A stretch of 64,000 nucleotides of DNA from Candidatus Borreliella tachyglossi (GTDB lineage: Bacteria > Spirochaetota > Spirochaetia > Borreliales > Borreliaceae): positions 314,454 to 378,453 of the forward strand of contig NZ_CP025785.1 in assembly GCF_003076595.1 (NCBI RefSeq). Direction: 5' to 3'. Of the stretch, positions 22,814-40,007 are shown one piece after another. Every line of letters starts with the position of its first letter. Positions within the stretch are counted from its first letter, which is position 1. Under the pieces are notes generated by a model. That model was not told the origin of the DNA. It did not search any database and saw nothing but the letters and a program-made list of their open reading frames with translations. The position numbers and the translations under genes were made by a program.

Positions 22814-22966
22814 AATTTATGTAGTCAACATTATATAAGAAGGATATATATGATGCGTAAAAACAAGTTATTACTTTTGATGTTATCTGTATTTGCTCTT
22901 TCTCTCATTTCATGTGAAACCCCCCCAGAAGAAAGGGCATGCGGAAATGCCAAAATTTCAAAGATG
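22814..22966 (+). repeat. Direct repeat, copy A (BB0323-type leader region)
   Basis: 153 bp that align without gaps to 23120-23272 (offset 306). The unit contains the last 36 bp of the 5' leader, the ribosome-binding site, the complete lipoprotein signal sequence and the first codons of the mature protein. Copies differ at scattered positions, mainly after the lipobox. Confidence 0.85.
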
Positions 22967-22972: not shown

Positions 22973-23155
22973 GATAGGAGTATAGTATTAATATAATTAA
23001 AATGGATCAGAGATGACAAACAAATAATTGCATAATGTTAGGTTATGCAATATTATGGTAGTAAGGTTTACTGAACAGCTAAAAGAACTGATAAATTGAT
23101 GCTCAAAACCAAAGTTCTTAATTTATATAGTCAATATTATATAAGAAGGATGTAT
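22973..23155 (+). other. Intergenic spacer with a 9-bp hairpin
   Basis: Between the truncated copy and the intact gene. It contains a perfect inverted repeat, ATTGCATAA at 23027-23035 and TTATGCAAT at 23043-23051 with a 7-nt loop. No T-run follows, so it is not a classical terminator. The last part is copy B of the direct repeat (from 23120). Confidence 0.6.
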
Positions 23156-23272
23156 ATGATGCGTAAAAACAAGTTATTACTTTTGATGTTATCTGTATTT
23201 GCTCTTTCTCTCATCTCATGTGAAACCCCTCCAGAAGATGCAAATAATAAAGATGCCAAAATTTCGAAATCA
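23120..23272 (+). repeat. Direct repeat, copy B (BB0323-type leader region)
   Basis: Partner of 22814-22966; this copy runs on into the full-length lipoprotein gene. Confidence 0.85.
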
Positions 23273-29728: not shown

Positions 29729-29789
29729 ACAACTTCATCCTTCAAAGTTTTCGAAAAACAATATATTAGCAAAGTAAAAATATTACATC

Positions 29790-29818
29790 ATTATACTTTA
29801 TTTATTTGGCAAATTAAA
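29790..29818 (-). promoter_or_regulatory. Promoter of the acyltransferase-flcA operon
   Basis: On the minus strand: TTTAAT (complement of 29813-29818), 17 bp spacer, perfect TATAAT (complement of 29790-29795). Start codon about 60 bp downstream. Confidence 0.6.
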
Positions 29819-29825
29819 GTAAAAT
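29797..29825 (+). promoter_or_regulatory. Possible oppA1 promoter overlapping the divergent promoter
   Basis: TTTATT at 29797-29802, 17 bp spacer, TAAAAT at 29820-29825. It interleaves with the minus-strand promoter at 29790-29818, so RNA polymerase could not occupy both at once. A palindrome TTGTTAACAA at 29836-29845 lies near the expected transcription start. Confidence 0.45.
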
Positions 29826-29894
29826 CCACTTAGGCTTGTTAACAAAATCATTTAAAACAAATAAAAATTCACATAATTCAAGGAGGATGTTTAT

Positions 29895-31478
29895 ATGAAA
29901 TACAAAGTAATAATTCTTTTATCTTTCTTTTCTGCTTTATTCTTAACTACCTGTTATAGTGATACACAGCAAGATAAAATAACCTTTAGAGTAACAAATG
30001 ACAGCGAGCCCGATTCGCTTGATCCTCAGCTTGCTACTTCTACGCAAGCATTCAACATCATCATAAATACATTCTTAGGCCTAACAGTAAGAGATTCACA
30101 AACTGGAGGCTATAAGCCAGGATTAGCTCAATCTTGGGATATATCTGATGATGGACTTGTGTACACATTCCACTTAAGAGAAGGTCTTGTTTGGAGCGAT
30201 GGTGTTCCTATTACTGCTGAGGGTATTAGAAAATCTTACCTTAGAATTTTAGATAAAGAAACGGGATCACAATATGTTGATATAGTTAAATCAACAATTA
30301 AAAATGGTCAGGATTACTTCGATGGCAAGGTAACTGATTCTGAACTTGGCATTAGGGCTTTAAATGACAATACTTTAGAGATAACCCTGGTTAATCCAAA
30401 ACCTTACTTCCTTGATATGTTAACGCACACATCATTCATACCAGTGCCAGTTCATGTTATTGAAAAACATGGGCAAAACTGGACAAATCCTGAAAATATG
30501 GCCGTAAGTGGTGCATATACGCTAAAGAAAAGACTAGTTAATGACAAAATAGTCATCACAAAAAACGATAAGTACTATAATGCTCCAAGTGTTGAAATAG
30601 ATGAAGTGATATTTTACCCTATACTCGGCGATACTGCCTATAATATGTACATAAAAGACGAACTTGATTTCCTCCCAACAATAGGAAGAGAAAAATTCGA
30701 TGAAGCCAGAATAAGGGATGATTATTATTCTTACCCTACGAATTCCGCAACCTACTTGGCATTCAACACTACTATTAAACCGCTTGATAATCCAAAAGTT
30801 AGAGAAGCTTTAACCCTTGCTATTGACAGAATAACTATAACTCACGTTATTGGCAAAGGTCGTTCAGATCCGACAAGAAACCTAACACCACCATTTGACA
30901 ACTACTCTTATGGTAAGGAATTAAAATTATTTGACCCTGAGCGATCAAAAAAATTGCTAGCTGAGGCTGGATATCCGAATGGTGCGGGTTTCCCTACTCT
31001 TAAATATAAAACTTCAAAACGTGATGGGATGGGCAGAACTGCAGAGTTCCTACAAGAGCAATTTAAAAAAACACTCAACATCAATCTTGAAATTGAAGTT
31101 GAAGAATGGACTACATTTTTAGGCAGTAGAAGAATGGGTAATTACCAAATATCAGACATGGGATGGGCAGGAGATTACGGAGATCCACTAACATTTCTTG
31201 AAAGCCTATTTACTACAGAAAATCATGTGTTTGGAGCATATGGATACTCAAACAAGGAATATGATGCTTTAATTAAAAAATCTGATTTTGAACAAGACCC
31301 GCTTAAAAGACAAGACATCTTAAGGCAAGCTGAGGCAATCATAGTAGAGAAGGACTTCCCTATGGCTCCATTATCAATCATGAAATCATATTATCTCTTT
31401 AGAAATGATAAATGGACTGGATGGACTCCCAATGTTGCAAATAAATATCACTATGAAGACATAAAGCCTAAAAGATAA
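29895..31478 (+). CDS. oppA1: Oligopeptide-binding lipoprotein OppA1
   Basis: 527-residue solute-binding protein of the peptide ABC importer. The signal peptide ends at LTTC (Cys 20). Family features: SEPDSLDPQLATS, the YKPGLAQSWDISDDGLVYTF segment, and VREALTLAIDR. A strong RBS, AAGGAGG, precedes the ATG. It delivers peptides to the OppBCDF complex encoded downstream. Codons 6-515 are identical to oppA2; only codon 5 (V against A) and the last codons differ. Borrelia depends on peptide import for amino acids. Confidence 0.95.
   Translation: MKYKVIILLSFFSALFLTTCYSDTQQDKITFRVTNDSEPDSLDPQLATSTQAFNIIINTFLGLTVRDSQTGGYKPGLAQSWDISDDGLVYTFHLREGLVWSDGVPITAEGIRKSYLRILDKETGSQYVDIVKSTIKNGQDYFDGKVTDSELGIRALNDNTLEITLVNPKPYFLDMLTHTSFIPVPVHVIEKHGQNWTNPENMAVSGAYTLKKRLVNDKIVITKNDKYYNAPSVEIDEVIFYPILGDTAYNMYIKDELDFLPTIGREKFDEARIRDDYYSYPTNSATYLAFNTTIKPLDNPKVREALTLAIDRITITHVIGKGRSDPTRNLTPPFDNYSYGKELKLFDPERSKKLLAEAGYPNGAGFPTLKYKTSKRDGMGRTAEFLQEQFKKTLNINLEIEVEEWTTFLGSRRMGNYQISDMGWAGDYGDPLTFLESLFTTENHVFGAYGYSNKEYDALIKKSDFEQDPLKRQDILRQAEAIIVEKDFPMAPLSIMKSYYLFRNDKWTGWTPNVANKYHYEDIKPKR
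29909..31439 (+). repeat. Long direct repeat, copy 1 (oppA1 body)
   Basis: About 1531 bp with no difference that I can see from 31728-33258 (offset 1819). It begins just after codon 5 and stops 13 codons before the end of the gene. Outside it, the 5' leaders differ, while a 28-bp stretch after the stop codons is again shared. Confidence 0.9.
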
Positions 31479-31713
31479 CAAAACTAACAAGAGATAAAAA
31501 TAAGTAATTTAAAAATTAAGATTTAAAATTAAATAATTAATAACTTATACTCCAAAGATTATAAGCTAAAAGAACTCATAGTATTAAACTTAAGAATCTT
31601 GATTTCATATCCTACCAGACGCATTATACTTTATCTTATAAAATAAAGTATAATTTATAAGATTGAAAAATAAATAAAAATACAAATACCAAATAACTTA
31701 AGGGGAGCAATTT
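31479..31713 (+). other. oppA1-oppA2 spacer with hairpin
   Basis: AT-rich, no ORF. A perfect 12-bp inverted repeat, 31623-31634 with 31643-31654 and an 8-nt loop, contains TATACT/AGTATA. No T-run follows, so it may be an mRNA-stability or processing element rather than a terminator. The same strand has possible but unconvincing promoter boxes. Confidence 0.55.
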
Positions 31714-33297
31714 ATGAAATACAAAGCAATAATTCTTTTATCTTTCTTTTCTGCTTTATTCTTAACTACCTGTTATAGTGATACACAGCAAGATAAAATA
31801 ACCTTTAGAGTAACAAATGACAGCGAGCCCGATTCGCTTGATCCTCAGCTTGCTACTTCTACGCAAGCATTCAACATCATCATAAATACATTCTTAGGCC
31901 TAACAGTAAGAGATTCACAAACTGGAGGCTATAAGCCAGGATTAGCTCAATCTTGGGATATATCTGATGATGGACTTGTGTACACATTCCACTTAAGAGA
32001 AGGTCTTGTTTGGAGCGATGGTGTTCCTATTACTGCTGAGGGTATTAGAAAATCTTACCTTAGAATTTTAGATAAAGAAACGGGATCACAATATGTTGAT
32101 ATAGTTAAATCAACAATTAAAAATGGTCAGGATTACTTCGATGGCAAGGTAACTGATTCTGAACTTGGCATTAGGGCTTTAAATGACAATACTTTAGAGA
32201 TAACCCTGGTTAATCCAAAACCTTACTTCCTTGATATGTTAACGCACACATCATTCATACCAGTGCCAGTTCATGTTATTGAAAAACATGGGCAAAACTG
32301 GACAAATCCTGAAAATATGGCCGTAAGTGGTGCATATACGCTAAAGAAAAGACTAGTTAATGACAAAATAGTCATCACAAAAAACGATAAGTACTATAAT
32401 GCTCCAAGTGTTGAAATAGATGAAGTGATATTTTACCCTATACTCGGCGATACTGCCTATAATATGTACATAAAAGACGAACTTGATTTCCTCCCAACAA
32501 TAGGAAGAGAAAAATTCGATGAAGCCAGAATAAGGGATGATTATTATTCTTACCCTACGAATTCCGCAACCTACTTGGCATTCAACACTACTATTAAACC
32601 GCTTGATAATCCAAAAGTTAGAGAAGCTTTAACCCTTGCTATTGACAGAATAACTATAACTCACGTTATTGGCAAAGGTCGTTCAGATCCGACAAGAAAC
32701 CTAACACCACCATTTGACAACTACTCTTATGGTAAGGAATTAAAATTATTTGACCCTGAGCGATCAAAAAAATTGCTAGCTGAGGCTGGATATCCGAATG
32801 GTGCGGGTTTCCCTACTCTTAAATATAAAACTTCAAAACGTGATGGGATGGGCAGAACTGCAGAGTTCCTACAAGAGCAATTTAAAAAAACACTCAACAT
32901 CAATCTTGAAATTGAAGTTGAAGAATGGACTACATTTTTAGGCAGTAGAAGAATGGGTAATTACCAAATATCAGACATGGGATGGGCAGGAGATTACGGA
33001 GATCCACTAACATTTCTTGAAAGCCTATTTACTACAGAAAATCATGTGTTTGGAGCATATGGATACTCAAACAAGGAATATGATGCTTTAATTAAAAAAT
33101 CTGATTTTGAACAAGACCCGCTTAAAAGACAAGACATCTTAAGGCAAGCTGAGGCAATCATAGTAGAGAAGGACTTCCCTATGGCTCCATTATCAATCAT
33201 GAAATCATATTATCTCTTTAGAAATGATAAATGGACTGGATGGACTCCCAATGTTGCAGAAAGCTATATTTATGAGGGCATAAAACCTAAGAGGTAG
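31714..33297 (+). CDS. oppA2: Oligopeptide-binding lipoprotein OppA2
   Basis: 527 residues, a near-twin of OppA1. The differences are Ala5 for Val5 and the C-terminal tail (ESYIYEGIKPKR against NKYHYEDIKPKR). RBS AGGGGAG upstream of the ATG, unlike the AAGGAGG of oppA1, so expression can differ although the products are functionally almost the same. In other Borrelia OppA1-3 are related but distinct proteins with different peptide preferences; here that difference between 1 and 2 is erased. Confidence 0.94.
   Translation: MKYKAIILLSFFSALFLTTCYSDTQQDKITFRVTNDSEPDSLDPQLATSTQAFNIIINTFLGLTVRDSQTGGYKPGLAQSWDISDDGLVYTFHLREGLVWSDGVPITAEGIRKSYLRILDKETGSQYVDIVKSTIKNGQDYFDGKVTDSELGIRALNDNTLEITLVNPKPYFLDMLTHTSFIPVPVHVIEKHGQNWTNPENMAVSGAYTLKKRLVNDKIVITKNDKYYNAPSVEIDEVIFYPILGDTAYNMYIKDELDFLPTIGREKFDEARIRDDYYSYPTNSATYLAFNTTIKPLDNPKVREALTLAIDRITITHVIGKGRSDPTRNLTPPFDNYSYGKELKLFDPERSKKLLAEAGYPNGAGFPTLKYKTSKRDGMGRTAEFLQEQFKKTLNINLEIEVEEWTTFLGSRRMGNYQISDMGWAGDYGDPLTFLESLFTTENHVFGAYGYSNKEYDALIKKSDFEQDPLKRQDILRQAEAIIVEKDFPMAPLSIMKSYYLFRNDKWTGWTPNVAESYIYEGIKPKR
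31728..33258 (+). repeat. Long direct repeat, copy 2 (oppA2 body)
   Basis: Partner of 29909-31439; same length and, by reading, same sequence. Confidence 0.9.
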
Positions 33298-33619
33298 CAA
33301 AACTAACAAGAGATAAAAATAAGTAATAAAAAGATAAACTACTTCTATGGCCTAGGCTATAGAAGTAGTTCTTTATAATATACTAATAACTTTTAAAAGC
33401 TACATAAGCACTCTTACATTCGTATTTATCTCTTATAAGTTAGTTATTTTTCTAATAGCATCTCGCCTTACAAGTTCACACATGGTACTAATCGAACTTA
33501 TTATTAGGAACTCCTTTATTAACTAAATTTACAAGGCTATAAGTCAAATTTTAGATGAAAAATTATTTATGCTTTTTAGCGAAATTGGAATTAACCTTAA
33601 TGAATAGGAGATAAAATGA
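33298..33619 (+). other. oppA2-oppA3 intergenic region
   Basis: 322 bp without an ORF of note. It starts with the 28-bp stretch also found after oppA1, then the hairpin at 33337-33370. The remainder is AT-rich leader for oppA3. I see no clear promoter pair. The oppA3 RBS AGGAG lies at 33606-33610. Confidence 0.6.
33337..33374 (+). terminator. Probable terminator after oppA2
   Basis: A 34-nt near-perfect palindrome. AACTACTTCTAT at 33337-33348 pairs with ATAGAAGTAGTT at 33359-33370, one G-U position, and GCCTAGGC at the centre. A short CTTT follows. Strong fold, weak T-tract; may attenuate rather than stop transcription. Confidence 0.65.
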
Positions 33620-35206
33620 ATGAAACAAATACAATATGTATCTATGTTATTTTCTATAATAACTATTCTAGCCTGCAGCAAGGAGATTGAAAAAGAACCT
33701 GCTTCATTTAAAATTAGCTGGGGCGGAGAACCAAAATCAATAGATCCTCAACTTTCTGAAGAGACGATAGGATCAGCGATAGTTTTGCAAATGTTTAGTG
33801 GCATAATGAATATTGATACACAAACTGGAGGTTATAAGCCAGGATTAGCTCAATCTTGGGATATATCTGATGATGGTCTTGTATACACATTTCATTTAAG
33901 AGAAGGTCTTGTTTGGAGCGATGGTGTTCCTATTACTGCTGAGAGCATTAGAAAATCTTACCTTAGAATTTTAGATAAAGAAACGGGCTCACAATATGTT
34001 GGTATGCTGAAGCCAACAATCAAAAATGCACAGAACTATTTCGATGGCAAGGTAACTGATTCTGAACTTGGCATTAAGGCTTTAAATGACAATACTCTAG
34101 AGATAATTCTGGTTAATCCAAAACCTTATTTCCTTACTATGCTAACACACCAATCATTTATACCAGTGCCAGTTCATGCAATTGAAAAACATGGGCAAAA
34201 CTGGACAAATCCTGAAAACATAGTTGTCAGTGGACCATTTAAACTAAAAGAAAGACTAGTTAATGAAAAAATAATAATTCAGAAAAACGATAAGTACTAT
34301 AATGCTCCAAGCGTTGAAATAGATGAAGTAGTATTTTACACTATAAGAGATAGCTCAACTTCTTATAGGATGTATGAGAATAATGAAATTGATGCTCTTA
34401 CATCTGGAACCATTCCATACGATTTAATAAAAGAGATAAAGTTAAGAAATGATCATTACACATCTGCCCTTAATGGTCTTTACTACTTTTCATTTAACAC
34501 ACAAATAAAACCAATAGATGATTCAAGAGTTAGAGAAGCTTTAACCCTTGCTATTGACAGAGAAACATTAACAGAAAAAGTTCTAAATAATGGTAGTATT
34601 GCCACAAGAAGAGTAACTCTCAACTTTAACAACTATTCTTACGGTAAAGAATTAAAATTATTTGACCCTGAACGATCAAAAAAATTGCTAGCTGTGGCTG
34701 GGTACCCTGACGGTGCGGGTTTCCCTACCCTTAAATTAAAATATAATACTAGTGAGAACCATAAGAAAATCTGTGAATTTATTCAAAATCAATGGTCAAT
34801 GATTTTAAATATTAAGGTTGAACTTGAAAATGAAGAATGGACTACATTCTTAGCACATAAACAAAGCGGAAATTATGTAATAGCAAGATCTGGCTGGATG
34901 GGGGACTATCCGGATCCACTAACCTTTCTAAATTTATTCCAAAAAGAATTCTCTCATTTTAGTTCATATAAATACTTTAATGAAGAATATGAAAATCTTA
35001 TTCATAAATCTGATTTTGAATTAGACCCAATAAAGAGGCAAGATATTTTAAGAAAAGCAGAAGAAATAATAATAGAAAAAGACTTCCCTGTTGCTCCAAT
35101 ATATATATACGCAGGGAATTATCTATTCAGAAATGATAAATGGACTGGATGGACTCCTAATATTCTAGAAAGATTTGATTTCTCTGCGCTTAAAAAAATA
35201 AAATAA
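33620..35206 (+). CDS. oppA3: Oligopeptide-binding lipoprotein OppA3
   Basis: 528 residues; signal peptide ends at ILAC (Cys 19). First about 65 residues are unlike OppA1/2, the next part (from TQTGGYKPGLAQSWD through TGSQYV) is almost identical to them also at DNA level, and later sections alternate between similar and divergent. This mosaic suggests past recombination. An out-of-frame ATG at 33616 has better RBS spacing (5 nt) than the true ATG at 33620 (9 nt), but only the latter gives a lipoprotein. Confidence 0.94.
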   Translation: MKQIQYVSMLFSIITILACSKEIEKEPASFKISWGGEPKSIDPQLSEETIGSAIVLQMFSGIMNIDTQTGGYKPGLAQSWDISDDGLVYTFHLREGLVWSDGVPITAESIRKSYLRILDKETGSQYVGMLKPTIKNAQNYFDGKVTDSELGIKALNDNTLEIILVNPKPYFLTMLTHQSFIPVPVHAIEKHGQNWTNPENIVVSGPFKLKERLVNEKIIIQKNDKYYNAPSVEIDEVVFYTIRDSSTSYRMYENNEIDALTSGTIPYDLIKEIKLRNDHYTSALNGLYYFSFNTQIKPIDDSRVREALTLAIDRETLTEKVLNNGSIATRRVTLNFNNYSYGKELKLFDPERSKKLLAVAGYPDGAGFPTLKLKYNTSENHKKICEFIQNQWSMILNIKVELENEEWTTFLAHKQSGNYVIARSGWMGDYPDPLTFLNLFQKEFSHFSSYKYFNEEYENLIHKSDFELDPIKRQDILRKAEEIIIEKDFPVAPIYIYAGNYLFRNDKWTGWTPNILERFDFSALKKIK

Positions 35207-35210
35207 TAAA

Positions 35211-35255
35211 ACAAATAGACACCTATGAAAATATTTTTTATAGATGTCTATTTGT
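35211..35255 (+). terminator. Hairpin after oppA3
   Basis: An imperfect inverted repeat of about 19 bp: ACAAATAGACACCTATGAAA pairs with the complementary arm ending TAGATGTCTATTTGT, with two mismatches and a short loop. Immediately follows the oppA3 stop. No strong T-run on the plus strand, so attenuation or 3'-end protection is as likely as termination. Confidence 0.65.
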
Positions 35256-35280
35256 TGATAAACTTAAAAATCTACAAATA

Positions 35281-35930
35281 GTGCTTGCTTTTCAAAGAAA
35301 TAAAAAGAAAAATATTGTAAAATTGCTATCAAGACCTAAAAACAAATTAATAACATTCTCAATAATTGTAATCTCTTGTGTCAAAACAAAAGACGATAAA
35401 CTATCATTTCAAATATGCATAGAAGGAAAACCGTTATCCCCTTTTAAGCCACACCTAATCGATAAAACTCTTGGAGCAAATATATTGAATATATATTTTT
35501 AGATCTCTTAACATTAAATACAAAAACAGCATAGCTTAAAGCAGGGTTAGTTAAATCTTAGGGTATATGATAATGAATTCGTATGCACATCCTACATCTA
35601 AAATAGGTCTCGTTTGGTGCGATGGTGTTCCTATTACTTCTGAAAGGATTAGTCAGTCACTAATACATGTATCATTTGTACCAGTACAAATCCATATTAT
35701 TGAAAAGCATGGGAAAACCTGGACAAAGCCTGAAAATATAGTTGTTAGTGAGCCATTCAAATTACAGCAAAGAGTACCAAACGATAAAAATAACACTTAT
35801 AAGCATCATAAATGCTATAATAAGAAATAAGTTGAACTAGAAGTATTTGTATATATACAATCCTGGACATTACCCATCAAAAATGATAAATGAACTGGAT
35901 AGATTCCTAATCTCTCAGGTATATATTATC
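35281..35930 (+). pseudogene. Decayed fourth oppA
   Basis: Remnants of an oppA gene in order. A lipoprotein-like N-terminus (FSIIVISC) is followed by LSFQICIEGKPLSPFKPHL, matching SFKISWGGEPKSIDPQL of OppA3. Next comes a stop-riddled stretch matching the YKPGLAQSWDIS region, then LVWCDGVPITSERI, then HIIEKHGKTWTKPENIVVS, and finally a tail matching NDKWTGWTPN with Trp codons mutated to stops. Large internal deletions remove most of the C-terminal lobe. It lies between oppA3 and oppB. No functional product expected. Confidence 0.88.
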
Positions 35931-36056
35931 TGTTTAAAATAAAATCAGCTCAAAAATCTTAAACTTAAATCCTACAATTAATATATAAATTACAGAATAT
36001 AGCATAATATATAGATATATATAACACAGAGAAATTATTAATTTTAACTTGCAAAA

Positions 36057-36105
36057 TAACACATTATATTTAATAATATTCAACATTATTAAATATAATG
36101 TGTTA
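36057..36105 (+). promoter_or_regulatory. Perfect 21-bp hairpin upstream of oppB
   Basis: 36057-36077 (TAACACATTATATTTAATAAT) is the exact reverse complement, apart from length, of 36085-36105, with a 7-nt loop ATTCAAC. No T-run follows. It is the first of two tandem palindromes before oppB. Confidence 0.8.
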
Positions 36106-36110
36106 AAATA

Positions 36111-36147
36111 ATCAATTATATAGGTTTGAAAAACCTATATAATTGAT
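36111..36147 (+). promoter_or_regulatory. Perfect 17-bp hairpin abutting the oppB ribosome-binding site
   Basis: ATCAATTATATAGGTTT at 36111-36127 pairs exactly with 36131-36147, loop GAA. AAGGAG of oppB starts two or three bases after the stem, so in RNA the helix would sit directly against the RBS. May be a stabilising 5' end after processing, an attenuator, or a translation control element. Confidence 0.8.
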
Positions 36148-36160
36148 ATAAGGAGCAATT

Positions 36161-37081
36161 ATGTTAAGGTTTACCGTGCAAAAATTACTAGAAACAATCC
36201 CAACTTTAATCGCAATAACATTTTTATGCTTTTTGATAATGAGACTTGCTCCCGGAAATCCATTTGATTCTGAGAAACCTATTGATCCTCAAGTAAAAGA
36301 AAAACTCATGCAAAAATACCATCTTGATAAACCTTTTTATATTCAAGCTTACTATTACATCACTGGTGTTTTAAGGGGAGACCTTGGGCCATCATTGAAG
36401 AAGAAAGACTTAACTGTCAATCAATACATAACATTAGGATTCCCTAAATCACTGACAATCGGAATAGTAAGCTTAATAATCTCACTAATGCTTGGAACTC
36501 TGTTAGGTACATTAGCGGCAATTAAAAAAAACACTCGTACCGATTATATAATAAGAATAGTAGCAATATTCGGAATTTCTGTACCAACCTTCGTAACTGG
36601 TCCTATTTTGCAATATTTTCTATCTGTAAAGTTAGGATTATTTTATACTTCTGGGTGGATTTCAGAACGCGGTGGTCTTTCAAATTTAGTTATGCCTATA
36701 TTAACAATGAGTTTGCCGTATACAGCCATTTTTACACGAATACTTAGAGGTTCTATGTTGGAAATATTAAAAAGCGACTTTGTAAGGACAGCAAGGGCTA
36801 AAGGCCTAAGTTTTCATGTAATAATCAGAAAGCACGTGTTGGTAGGCGCAATACTTCCTCTAGTGAGCTATATAGGTCCTGCATTTGCTGGCATAATTTC
36901 TGGTAGCATGGTTATCGAACAAATATTTAGAATTGCTGGGATGGGTATGTTTACAGTAGAAGCATCCTTAAACAGGGATTATCCACTATTAATGGGTTCA
37001 ATTTTAGTATACTCAACATTATTACTTATTTCTATTTTAGCATCTGATATTACTTATAAAAGACTTGACCCAAGGACATAG
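36161..37081 (+). CDS. oppB: Oligopeptide ABC transporter permease OppB
   Basis: 306 residues, six membrane helices. N-terminal LLETIPTLIAITFLCFLIMRLAPGNPF is typical of OppB/DppB, and the coupling EAA-like loop reads DFVRTARAKGLSFHVIIRKHVL. Begins the oppBCDF run; AAGGAG precedes the ATG. Pairs with OppC in the inner membrane. Confidence 0.97.
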   Translation: MLRFTVQKLLETIPTLIAITFLCFLIMRLAPGNPFDSEKPIDPQVKEKLMQKYHLDKPFYIQAYYYITGVLRGDLGPSLKKKDLTVNQYITLGFPKSLTIGIVSLIISLMLGTLLGTLAAIKKNTRTDYIIRIVAIFGISVPTFVTGPILQYFLSVKLGLFYTSGWISERGGLSNLVMPILTMSLPYTAIFTRILRGSMLEILKSDFVRTARAKGLSFHVIIRKHVLVGAILPLVSYIGPAFAGIISGSMVIEQIFRIAGMGMFTVEASLNRDYPLLMGSILVYSTLLLISILASDITYKRLDPRT

Positions 37082-37093
37082 GAGAATAATAAA

Positions 37094-38146
37094 ATGAGTG
37101 AATATGAAAAAAAAGACCTCTCATGTGAATTACATACATCTCGCAAAAGAGCTTGGTTAAGGTTTAAGGAAAACAAACTTGCATTTATGAGCATATTTGT
37201 AATTGGTTTTTACGTACTCATTGCAATATTTCAACCAATACTGCCAATACACAAATACTATACGCAAGTAGTAGAACATGCTGATTTACCTCCATCTTTT
37301 AGACATGCTGGAGAGCTTTGGTATGAAAAGGAACTTTATTTTATAAAAAAATTATCAGAAAAAGAAAAACGAGGAATAAATGAAGAAGAACAGGCAAAGC
37401 TAAACGAAATAAAAAGAAAGATAGAAACTGAAGTCCAACAAATTGACGGAAAAGAAGTTCAAATACACAAAAGAGTATACTTACTAGGAACAGACAGTCT
37501 TGGACGAGACTTGCTTGCAAGAATAATACAGGGAAGTCAAATATCAATATCTGTAGGATTTATTGGAGCATTTATAGCAATGATAATAGGTTCCATAGTA
37601 GGTGCAATTGCAGGATTTTTTGGTGGAATCCTAGACAGAGTAATAACCAAAATAATAGAAGTTCTTTATATTTTACCCACTTTACTTGTCATAATCACAT
37701 TAATGACTATTATGGAAAGGAATATTATAGGACTATTTATAGCAATCAGCATTATGTCATGGCTAATAATTGCTAGAGTCGTGAGAGGGCAAGTACAATC
37801 ACTTGCAAAATCTGAATTTATACAAGTAGCTAGAACACTAGGCGCAACGAATAGAAGAATGATACTTAATCATTTAATTCCTAATAGCTTGGGTATGATA
37901 GTAATACTTACAACAATGAATGTACCATCATTTATCATGCTTGAATCATTCTTGTCATTTCTAGGTCTTGGAATATCAGCACCAATGACTAGCTGGGGAG
38001 AATTGGTAAAAAATGGAATTCCTACATTTGTTGAATACCCATGGAAAATTTTTATTCCAGCAACAGTCATGACAACATTCTTATTGTTTATGAACTTTTT
38101 AGGTGACGGATTAAGAGATGCATTTGATCCGAAAGACAACCTTTAG
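37094..38146 (+). CDS. oppC: Oligopeptide ABC transporter permease OppC
   Basis: 350 residues. N-terminal helix, then a periplasmic insert rich in Lys/Glu (about residues 60-125) and HKRVYLLGTDSLGRDLLARIIQGSQISIS, the OppC/DppC signature. Coupling loop: EFIQVARTLGATNRRMILNHLIP. Twelve bp after oppB. The charged insert is longer than in many OppC proteins. Confidence 0.96.
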   Translation: MSEYEKKDLSCELHTSRKRAWLRFKENKLAFMSIFVIGFYVLIAIFQPILPIHKYYTQVVEHADLPPSFRHAGELWYEKELYFIKKLSEKEKRGINEEEQAKLNEIKRKIETEVQQIDGKEVQIHKRVYLLGTDSLGRDLLARIIQGSQISISVGFIGAFIAMIIGSIVGAIAGFFGGILDRVITKIIEVLYILPTLLVIITLMTIMERNIIGLFIAISIMSWLIIARVVRGQVQSLAKSEFIQVARTLGATNRRMILNHLIPNSLGMIVILTTMNVPSFIMLESFLSFLGLGISAPMTSWGELVKNGIPTFVEYPWKIFIPATVMTTFLLFMNFLGDGLRDAFDPKDNL

Positions 38147-38156
38147 GAGCAATCAA

Positions 38157-39029
38157 ATGAAAGAAGACTACATACTGGACATAAGAAATTTATCAGTTGA
38201 GTTTAAATTAAAGCATACGACAATATATCCTGTAAACAATATAAACTTAAAAATTAAAAAAGGCGAAATTAGGGCCATTGTTGGAGAATCTGGTAGTGGA
38301 AAATCTGTAACAAGCATGGCAATATTAAAACTATTACCTGAACTGACAACAATATACAAAAACGGAGAAATACTATTTGAAGATCAAGATTTGCTGAAGC
38401 TTAGCGAAAAAGAGCTTCAAAGTATTAGAGGTAATAAAATAGCAATGATATTCCAGGATCCAATGACTTCTTTAAATCCATATTTAAGAGTATCTACGCA
38501 AATTGAAGAGACAATAATGCTACATCAAAAATTAGATAAAAACACAGCAAAGAAAAAAGCAATAGAAATGCTAAAAACCGTTGGGGTTGTAAACGCAGAA
38601 GAAAGAATAGAGCATTACCCGCATCAATTCTCAGGGGGAATGAGACAAAGGGTTATGATTGCAATGGCTTTAAGTTGTCATCCATCACTATTAATCGCAG
38701 ATGAACCTACTACAGCTCTTGACGTTACAATTCAGGAACAAATATTACTACTTATTAAAAGTTTATCTAAAAAGTTCAATACTTCAACAATACTAATAAC
38801 TCATGACTTGGCTGTAGTTGCTGAAATTTGCGATACAGTATCTGTAATGTACCAAGGCAACTTTGTAGAAGAAGGCACAGTAGAAGCGATATTTAAAAAC
38901 CCTCAACATCCATACACAATTGGTCTTTTAAAATCAATACTTACTCTAGACCAAAATCCAAATGAAAAACTTTATTCAATTAAAGAAAATCCTATTGAAA
39001 TAACTACAAGTAACATTGAGGAGCATTAA
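38157..39029 (+). CDS. oppD: Oligopeptide ABC transporter ATPase OppD
   Basis: 290 residues. Walker A GESGSGKS, Q-loop MIFQDPMTSLNPYLRV, signature FSGGMRQRVMIAMALS, Walker B LLIADEPTTALDVT, H-loop ITHDLAVVAEI. The start at 38157 follows AGGAG; the frame is open back to 38118 inside oppC, which I reject. The usual C-terminal Cys-rich Fe-S motif of some OppD proteins is not evident. Confidence 0.96.
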   Translation: MKEDYILDIRNLSVEFKLKHTTIYPVNNINLKIKKGEIRAIVGESGSGKSVTSMAILKLLPELTTIYKNGEILFEDQDLLKLSEKELQSIRGNKIAMIFQDPMTSLNPYLRVSTQIEETIMLHQKLDKNTAKKKAIEMLKTVGVVNAEERIEHYPHQFSGGMRQRVMIAMALSCHPSLLIADEPTTALDVTIQEQILLLIKSLSKKFNTSTILITHDLAVVAEICDTVSVMYQGNFVEEGTVEAIFKNPQHPYTIGLLKSILTLDQNPNEKLYSIKENPIEITTSNIEEH

Positions 39030-40007
39030 ATGAACAATGGACAAGATATAATTCTTAAAGTAGAAAACTTAGTACAAACATTCACAATTGGAGAAGACTT
39101 CTTATTTTGGAAAAATAAACGCAAGGTAAACGCTGTAAACGATATTAGTTTTGAAGTTGAACGCAATAAAACATTAGGTCTTGTTGGTGAGTCGGGATGT
39201 GGTAAATCAACAACTTTAAGATCCATAATGCAACTCTATACACCAACATCTGGGAGTATATATTTCAATGGTAAAGATATTACTCAACTTTCAAGAAGAG
39301 AACTTCTTAAAACAAAAAAAGACATGCAGATGGTATTTCAAGACCCACATACATCTCTTAATCCAAGAATGACAATAAGAGAAATAATAGCAGAACCATT
39401 AATTATATACAACGAAAATAAAATTCTTCCAAGGACAAAAAAAGAAATAGAAAAGAGAGTAGATGAACTGATGGACATTACTGAACTGGAAAAAAGTATG
39501 CTATCTAGGTATCCACACGAATTTTCAGGCGGTCAAAGACAGAGAATAGGAATAGCCAGAGCACTTGCTCTTAATCCTAAACTTTTACTTCTAGATGAAG
39601 CTGTATCTGCGTTAGATGTATCCATTCGAGCTCAAATTCTAAATCTACTTAAGGATTTACAAAAAGAATTAAATTTGTCTTATCTTTTTATCTCACACGA
39701 CTTAGCAGTAGTAAAATACATGAGCGATAAAATTGCTGTAATGTATCTGGGAGTCATCTTAGAGATTGCGCCTAGAGAAATTTTATTTTCAAATCCTATA
39801 CATCCATACACCAAAACATTAATAGCATCTATTCCCGAAATTGATCCTGAAAAAAGAAAAAACAAAACTATCAAACTTGATGAACCTTCTTTGGCAAACA
39901 TGCGAAACACAACCTTAACAAAAAATGCACCACTTGAGGAATTGGAAAAGGATCATTTTGTGTCTAAGTATCTTTTTGATGAAATGCATAGCCTACTTAA
40001 TACTTAG
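39030..40007 (+). CDS. oppF: Oligopeptide ABC transporter ATPase OppF
   Basis: 325 residues. Walker A GESGCGKST, MVFQDPHTSLNPRMTIREI, signature FSGGQRQRIGIARAL, Walker B LLLDEAVSALDVS, ISHDLAVV. ATG follows the oppD stop directly, with GAGGAGC as RBS. Last gene of the opp operon. Confidence 0.96.
   Translation: MNNGQDIILKVENLVQTFTIGEDFLFWKNKRKVNAVNDISFEVERNKTLGLVGESGCGKSTTLRSIMQLYTPTSGSIYFNGKDITQLSRRELLKTKKDMQMVFQDPHTSLNPRMTIREIIAEPLIIYNENKILPRTKKEIEKRVDELMDITELEKSMLSRYPHEFSGGQRQRIGIARALALNPKLLLLDEAVSALDVSIRAQILNLLKDLQKELNLSYLFISHDLAVVKYMSDKIAVMYLGVILEIAPREILFSNPIHPYTKTLIASIPEIDPEKRKNKTIKLDEPSLANMRNTTLTKNAPLEELEKDHFVSKYLFDEMHSLLNT

Follow-up and report, generated by a model that had tools for sequence, protein, structure and literature searches.

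The window, a 64,000-nucleotide stretch of the Candidatus Borreliella tachyglossi genome, carries two tandem oppA1 genes, oppA1a and oppA1b, with identical bodies and distinct 5′ leaders and 3′ tails. Taken together, the data make it very probable that an old duplication of oppA1 was followed by gene conversion repeated in each lineage, the latest event or events having overwritten the bodies of the two copies in the window species. RecA-type homologous recombination between adjacent copies, recurring independently in each lineage, would account for this pattern. The latest event(s) in the window species would have overwritten codons 6 to 515 plus the 30 bp that directly follow the stop codon, and codon 5, the 39-bp 3′ tail, and both leaders would have escaped conversion. 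In two related species, represented by genomes G014 and G016, the scaffold would have been homogenised and the peptide-contacting segments not, selection probably keeping two pockets apart; in the window species, the peptide-contacting segments would have been homogenised too.

Read along the forward strand, the locus appears to consist of oppA1a, oppA1b, oppA2, a pseudo-oppA3, and then oppBCDF, with a predicted role in peptide binding. The ORFs of oppA1a (29895 to 31478) and oppA1b (31714 to 33297) each encode an oligopeptide-binding lipoprotein of 527 aa, 99% identical to one another. Both are lipoproteins of SBP family 5 (Pfam SBP_bac_5, E = 1.2e-84 for oppA1a), the nearest solved structures being Borrelia OppA4 (4GL8, BbOppA4) and OppA3 (9PV8). 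In a tree of residues 236 to 512, which lie outside the homogenised domain II, copies a and b fall with the oppA1 that comes first in Lyme and relapsing-fever (RF) Borrelia (support 93), and the third gene (33620 to 35206) groups with the OppA2 clade (support 93), into which copy b does not fall. The pair, named oppA1 and oppA2 in an earlier note on this DNA, is thus to be renamed as two oppA1 paralogs, the oppA2 ortholog being the third binding-protein gene. The aspartate that binds the peptide N terminus (Asp431 of BbOppA4, Asp419 of Salmonella OppA; PMC5736914) is conserved within an aligned GW.GDY motif. Further downstream lie a decayed oppA3-like gene (35207 to 36160, remnants at 35347 to 35944), in which matches to OppA3 are interrupted by stops, and the transporter genes oppB, oppC, oppD, and oppF (36161 to 40007), oppB being identified by Pfam BPD_transp_1 and the other three by ORF translations and conserved gene order.

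The leader of copy a occupies positions 29729 to 29894, and the a-b spacer together with the leader of b occupies 31509 to 31713. The leader of b contains an inverted repeat (ATACTTTAT..ATAAAGTAT, about 31623 to 31654) that G016 and G014 largely share and that is possibly a promoter or operator; a similar sequence lies 5′ of copy a. A scan for consensus promoters returned 43 hits where 32 were expected and was not informative. A terminator-like hairpin follows copy b (33337 to 33370), and hairpin-capable sequence occurs at the matching place in G016 and G014.

Self-comparison of the window revealed that 29909 to 31439 equals 31728 to 33258 base for base (1,531 bp, offset 1,819), an identity for which chance cannot account. 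Residues 6 to 515 are the same in both proteins, with Sd = Nd = 0 over codons 6 to 515. Across the aligned segment from 29894 to 31508, the two copies differ at 14 positions in total: one is 29908, in codon 5 (V in copy a, A in copy b), and the remaining 13 fall within 31440 to 31478, a stretch that comprises the 12 final codons with the stop and corresponds to 33259 to 33297 in copy b. The 14 bp 5′ of the codon 5 difference (29894 to 29907) are the same in both copies; the 5′ leaders are unlike each other. Past the stop codons, a second homogenised patch of 30 bp extends from 31479 to 31508 in copy a and from 33298 to 33327 in copy b. The identity of the bodies and of residues 6 to 515 described in the earlier note is therefore exact to the base, and the differences that it had reported in the leaders, codon 5, and about 12 last codons are confirmed and located; the match that it had placed after the stop codons does exist but measures 30 bp, not 28.

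We compared 36 genomes of the family, of which G000 is the window genome. Two copies of oppA1 were found in G000, G016, and G014, with G013 carrying a truncated array; the RF genomes have a single oppA1, and copy number at the locus varies among relatives. As in the window, the pair lies between an acyltransferase gene and oppA2 in G016 and G014. A tree of 13 neighbouring proteins (4,519 columns) recovered G000 as sister to G011, G013, G014, G015, and G016 (support 0.98), a placement that puts the window species in the echidna-reptile group. A tree of plsC and oppB alone had put G000 with the RF clade, and the 13-protein tree was preferred.

Because of N gaps or truncated genes in G011, G013, and G015, tests of the two copies against their counterparts were run without these genomes. 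The copy a leader can be aligned with those of G016a and G014a (78% over 173 bp to G016); the a-b spacer, with the leader of b, can likewise be aligned with the G016 and G014 spacers (67% over 224 bp to G016). The codon 5 states also agree with G016. In the tails, an a-type (.KY) and a b-type (E.Y) state are common to all three species, copy a matching G016a/G014a (.NKY/.GKY) and copy b matching G016b/G014b (AE.Y). The common synteny and the orthologous leaders, spacer, and tail types show that the pair existed before the species split, and oppA1a/oppA1b is an old tandem duplication that predates the separation from G016 and G014. A date before the RF split, suggested by some segment trees, was rejected because the supports (70 to 86) are too weak.

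The tails sort by a/b type, and the bodies sort by species, the incongruence between body and tail for which alignment of relatives had been proposed as a check. Nucleotide identity between a and b is 99.2% in G000, 95.1% in G014, and 89.2% in G016, and the identity of orthologs between species (76 to 84%) lies below every within-species a/b value. For codons 6 to 515, the by-species topology beats the by-ortholog topology (dlnL 869, AU p = 3e-64), and a topology in which orthology is kept in G014 and G016 only is also rejected (dlnL 445). Body dS between a and b is 0 in G000, compared to about 0.85 to G016. With 1,531 sites unchanged, the last homogenisation in the window species was very recent relative to the species split.

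Unconverted islands persist in the bodies of G014 and G016. For an island set drawn after the data had been seen, dS between a and b is 0.55 in the islands and 0.011 elsewhere in G014, and 0.96 and 0.143, respectively, in G016. Island dS is about that of orthologs between the species (about 0.64), indicating that the islands have been without conversion since the split or before. The raised synonymous divergence shows that the islands escaped homogenisation. When mapped on Salmonella OppA, the a/b amino acid differences lie mostly at positions 24 to 44, 269 to 276, 301 to 312, 363 to 375, 402 to 413, and 482 to 484. Hydrogen bonding in Salmonella OppA involves Glu32, Val34, His371, Arg404, Arg413, Gly415, Trp416, Cys417, Asp419, and Tyr485, and ten structural elements surround the ligand (PMC6305025). 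With two elements widened to take in contact residues 32 and 419, the G016 copies differ at 28/75 sites in contact-region elements versus 43/406 elsewhere (odds ratio 5.0), and the G014 copies differ at 17/75 versus 14/406 (odds ratio 8.2), with a Fisher p of about 1e-7 and circular-shift fractions of 0.002 (G016) and 0.008 (G014).

We infer that selection for different peptide ranges is probably the cause of this escape. The islands might instead be merely fast-evolving loops, not protected by selection for peptide specificity, given that OppA pocket segments are variable between any paralogs and that the islands used for dS were chosen with hindsight. This we consider unlikely, albeit a serious contender, as fast-evolving loops would not explain why synonymous divergence is raised along with the amino acid differences, a sign of escape from homogenisation seen, for instance, in G014, nor why the a/b types are common to the species.

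As regards the process itself, a bounded tract, unconverted flanks, and patchiness are all present, and gene conversion or an equivalent recombination between the copies is strongly supported by the sequence comparisons. Gene conversion had already been put forward in the earlier note, and the contrast between the orthologous leaders, spacer, and tails of the sister species and the species-wise clustering of the bodies makes it firmer. It is also the simplest form of concerted evolution here, because three lineages have kept the same copy number and flanks. Unequal crossing-over between sister chromosomes that expands and contracts the array, without non-reciprocal conversion, is permitted by tandem copies, agrees with the variable copy number of relatives (the G013 array, the single oppA1 of RF genomes), and in repeated cycles would leave much the same trace. 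It nevertheless appears improbable, since exactly two copies with conserved flanks are found in each of the three lineages and patches of about 10 to 100 codons, some homogenised and some not, are easier to obtain by short conversion tracts; we therefore infer conversion rather than crossing-over cycles.

Still less probable is an assembly artefact by which truly differing copies were collapsed or polished to one consensus. The cluster is evidently hard to assemble, with N gaps in G011 and G015, and over-polishing could mask a few residual differences. Yet in the one genome that represents the window species, a single contig of 937,305 bp holds both copies, resolved with distinct flanks, leaders, and tails and with no N in the 12.1 kb around the locus, and polishing could not erase a difference of 5 to 11% as seen between the G014 or G016 copies. 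A recent tandem duplication of one oppA1 in the window species, its tail and leader changed later, would fit the complete identity over 1,531 bp and its reach to 30 bp past the stop but is scarcely credible, being excluded by an old shared pair with bodies that cluster by species: the alignable leaders and spacer in G016/G014 and the a/b-type tail residues common to the species reinforce the argument already made against it in the earlier note, and drift following a fresh copy could not produce 13 changes in 39 bp and none in 1,531 bp.

Gene conversion in the window species is not explained by one clean donor-to-recipient event; several events of different age are needed. In G000 the island segments are the same in both copies, i.e., they have been homogenised too. 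The shared body is b-like and like RF oppA1 at residues 1 to 70 (support 96, G000 with RF) and a-like at residues 236 to 345, where it groups with G016a (support 99), a mosaic that points to segmental transfers before the last homogenisation. The tail ends in IKPKR in both G000 copies and in IKVKK in both copies of G014 and G016, indicating that it was also exchanged at some earlier time. The presence of an unconverted 39-bp tail inside converted flanks may be due either to two separate tracts or to a single heteroduplex in which mismatch repair was patchy. Of the conversion tract with fixed ends first envisaged for this pair, the unconverted ends hold, but the body is a mosaic and the 30-bp post-stop patch has been homogenised too. 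Donor assignment by a/b-diagnostic sites and outgroup polarity gave a mixed signal, and no direction is claimed.

Homogenisation extends beyond the oppA1 pair. Residues 71 to 235, i.e., domain II plus part of domain I (domains from PMC5736914), cluster by species across oppA1 and oppA2 (G000a/b/c, 100; G014a/b/c, 100; G001a/c, 96). Positions 30093 to 30623 of oppA1a and 33815 to 34345 of oppA2 are 89% identical, above between-species orthologs, and the domain II block of oppA1 and oppA2 in G014 is 98 to 100% identical. Domain II has thus been homogenised between oppA1 and oppA2 as well, and conversion at the locus is recurrent and not a single accident. The oppA3-like gene is intact in G016, where it is the fourth gene, and remnants are also present in G007 and G005, a distribution that suggests an ancestral oppA3 with repeated losses outside the Lyme group.

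In the window species, the two oppA1 genes are now predicted to encode nearly one protein from two different leaders. A role in dosage or expression timing would be more likely than two specificities, the contribution of the tail aside; a functional difference could still reside in the divergent C-terminal tails. The trans-species a/b states make it likely that the ancestor of the window species had two different pockets. Because oppA1a and oppA1b have unlike pocket segments in G016 and G014, it is plausible that the second binding specificity was lost in the window species, which would have narrowed its peptide range. Borrelia is unable to synthesise most amino acids and relies on imported peptides, and its diet is believed to be set by how many distinct OppA pockets it has. 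It is quite possible, if not quite probable, that a balance operates in reptile-group Borrelia in which conversion keeps the transporter-docking scaffold uniform (including domain II across oppA1 and oppA2), selection keeps the oppA1a and oppA1b pockets apart, and mosaic transfers recombine pocket segments, the window species having lost the second pocket and kept two promoters for one product. The locus offers a natural comparison of two oppA1 pockets in the sister species with one pocket shared by two genes in the window species. In practical terms, oppA gene trees and oppA PCR assays mix histories, domain II following the species and the pocket segments following the paralog.

Segmental gene conversion is familiar in the same spirochaete family from vls of Lyme Borrelia, in which silent cassettes serve antigenic variation and diversity is generated. 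Unlike vls, oppA1a and oppA1b would be two expressed-type genes from which conversion removes diversity, and no sign of a dedicated conversion system was found at the pair. In order, in its SBP family 5 lipoproteins, and in the downstream oppBCDF, the locus resembles the chromosomal Borrelia oppA1-oppA2-oppA3/oppBCDF locus, of which Lyme Borrelia has oppA1 to oppA3 and RF species have oppA1 and oppA2 only (Groshong et al. 2017, PMC5736914). That study attributes the oppA paralogs to serial duplication and mentions neither an oppA1a/oppA1b pair nor gene conversion, and no description of conversion among Borrelia oppA genes was found in the open-access papers searched. Island escape has a precedent in kind in the GOT1p1/GOT1p2 paralogs of Tigriopus californicus (PMC3728101), where conversion has homogenised all but some islands that stay divergent and rare transfers make mosaics; here, in contrast, the protein is a bacterial binding protein, and the islands coincide with the ligand pocket and have been erased in the window species. 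Conversion between diverged bacterial paralogs has reportedly been studied in the release-factor genes RF1/RF2 (PMC4530459), which are not a tandem pair, whereas in oppA1a/b tandem copies have been homogenised almost completely. The mechanism is a familiar one, of which the pair is a clear example, and what merits follow-up is that the unconverted islands fall on the ligand pocket.

Among the relatives, G013 (L041:1599-5128) carries three tandem oppA units, each truncated at the N terminus and about 1.13 kb long, and the two complete unit junctions have the same sequence (GCGAGGATTACTTC). An intact chromosomal oppA that includes a signal peptide was not seen in this genome; the array is either real decay or an assembly error. 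N runs lie inside the oppA cluster of G011 and G015 (L043:1662-2082 and L042:3247-3346, respectively), with apparent hybrid genes around them, and both could result from short-read collapse at homogenised copies. Elsewhere in the window, a 119-bp direct repeat (22814 to 22932 and 23120 to 23238, 95.8% identical) is located upstream of and into an ORF that starts at 23096.
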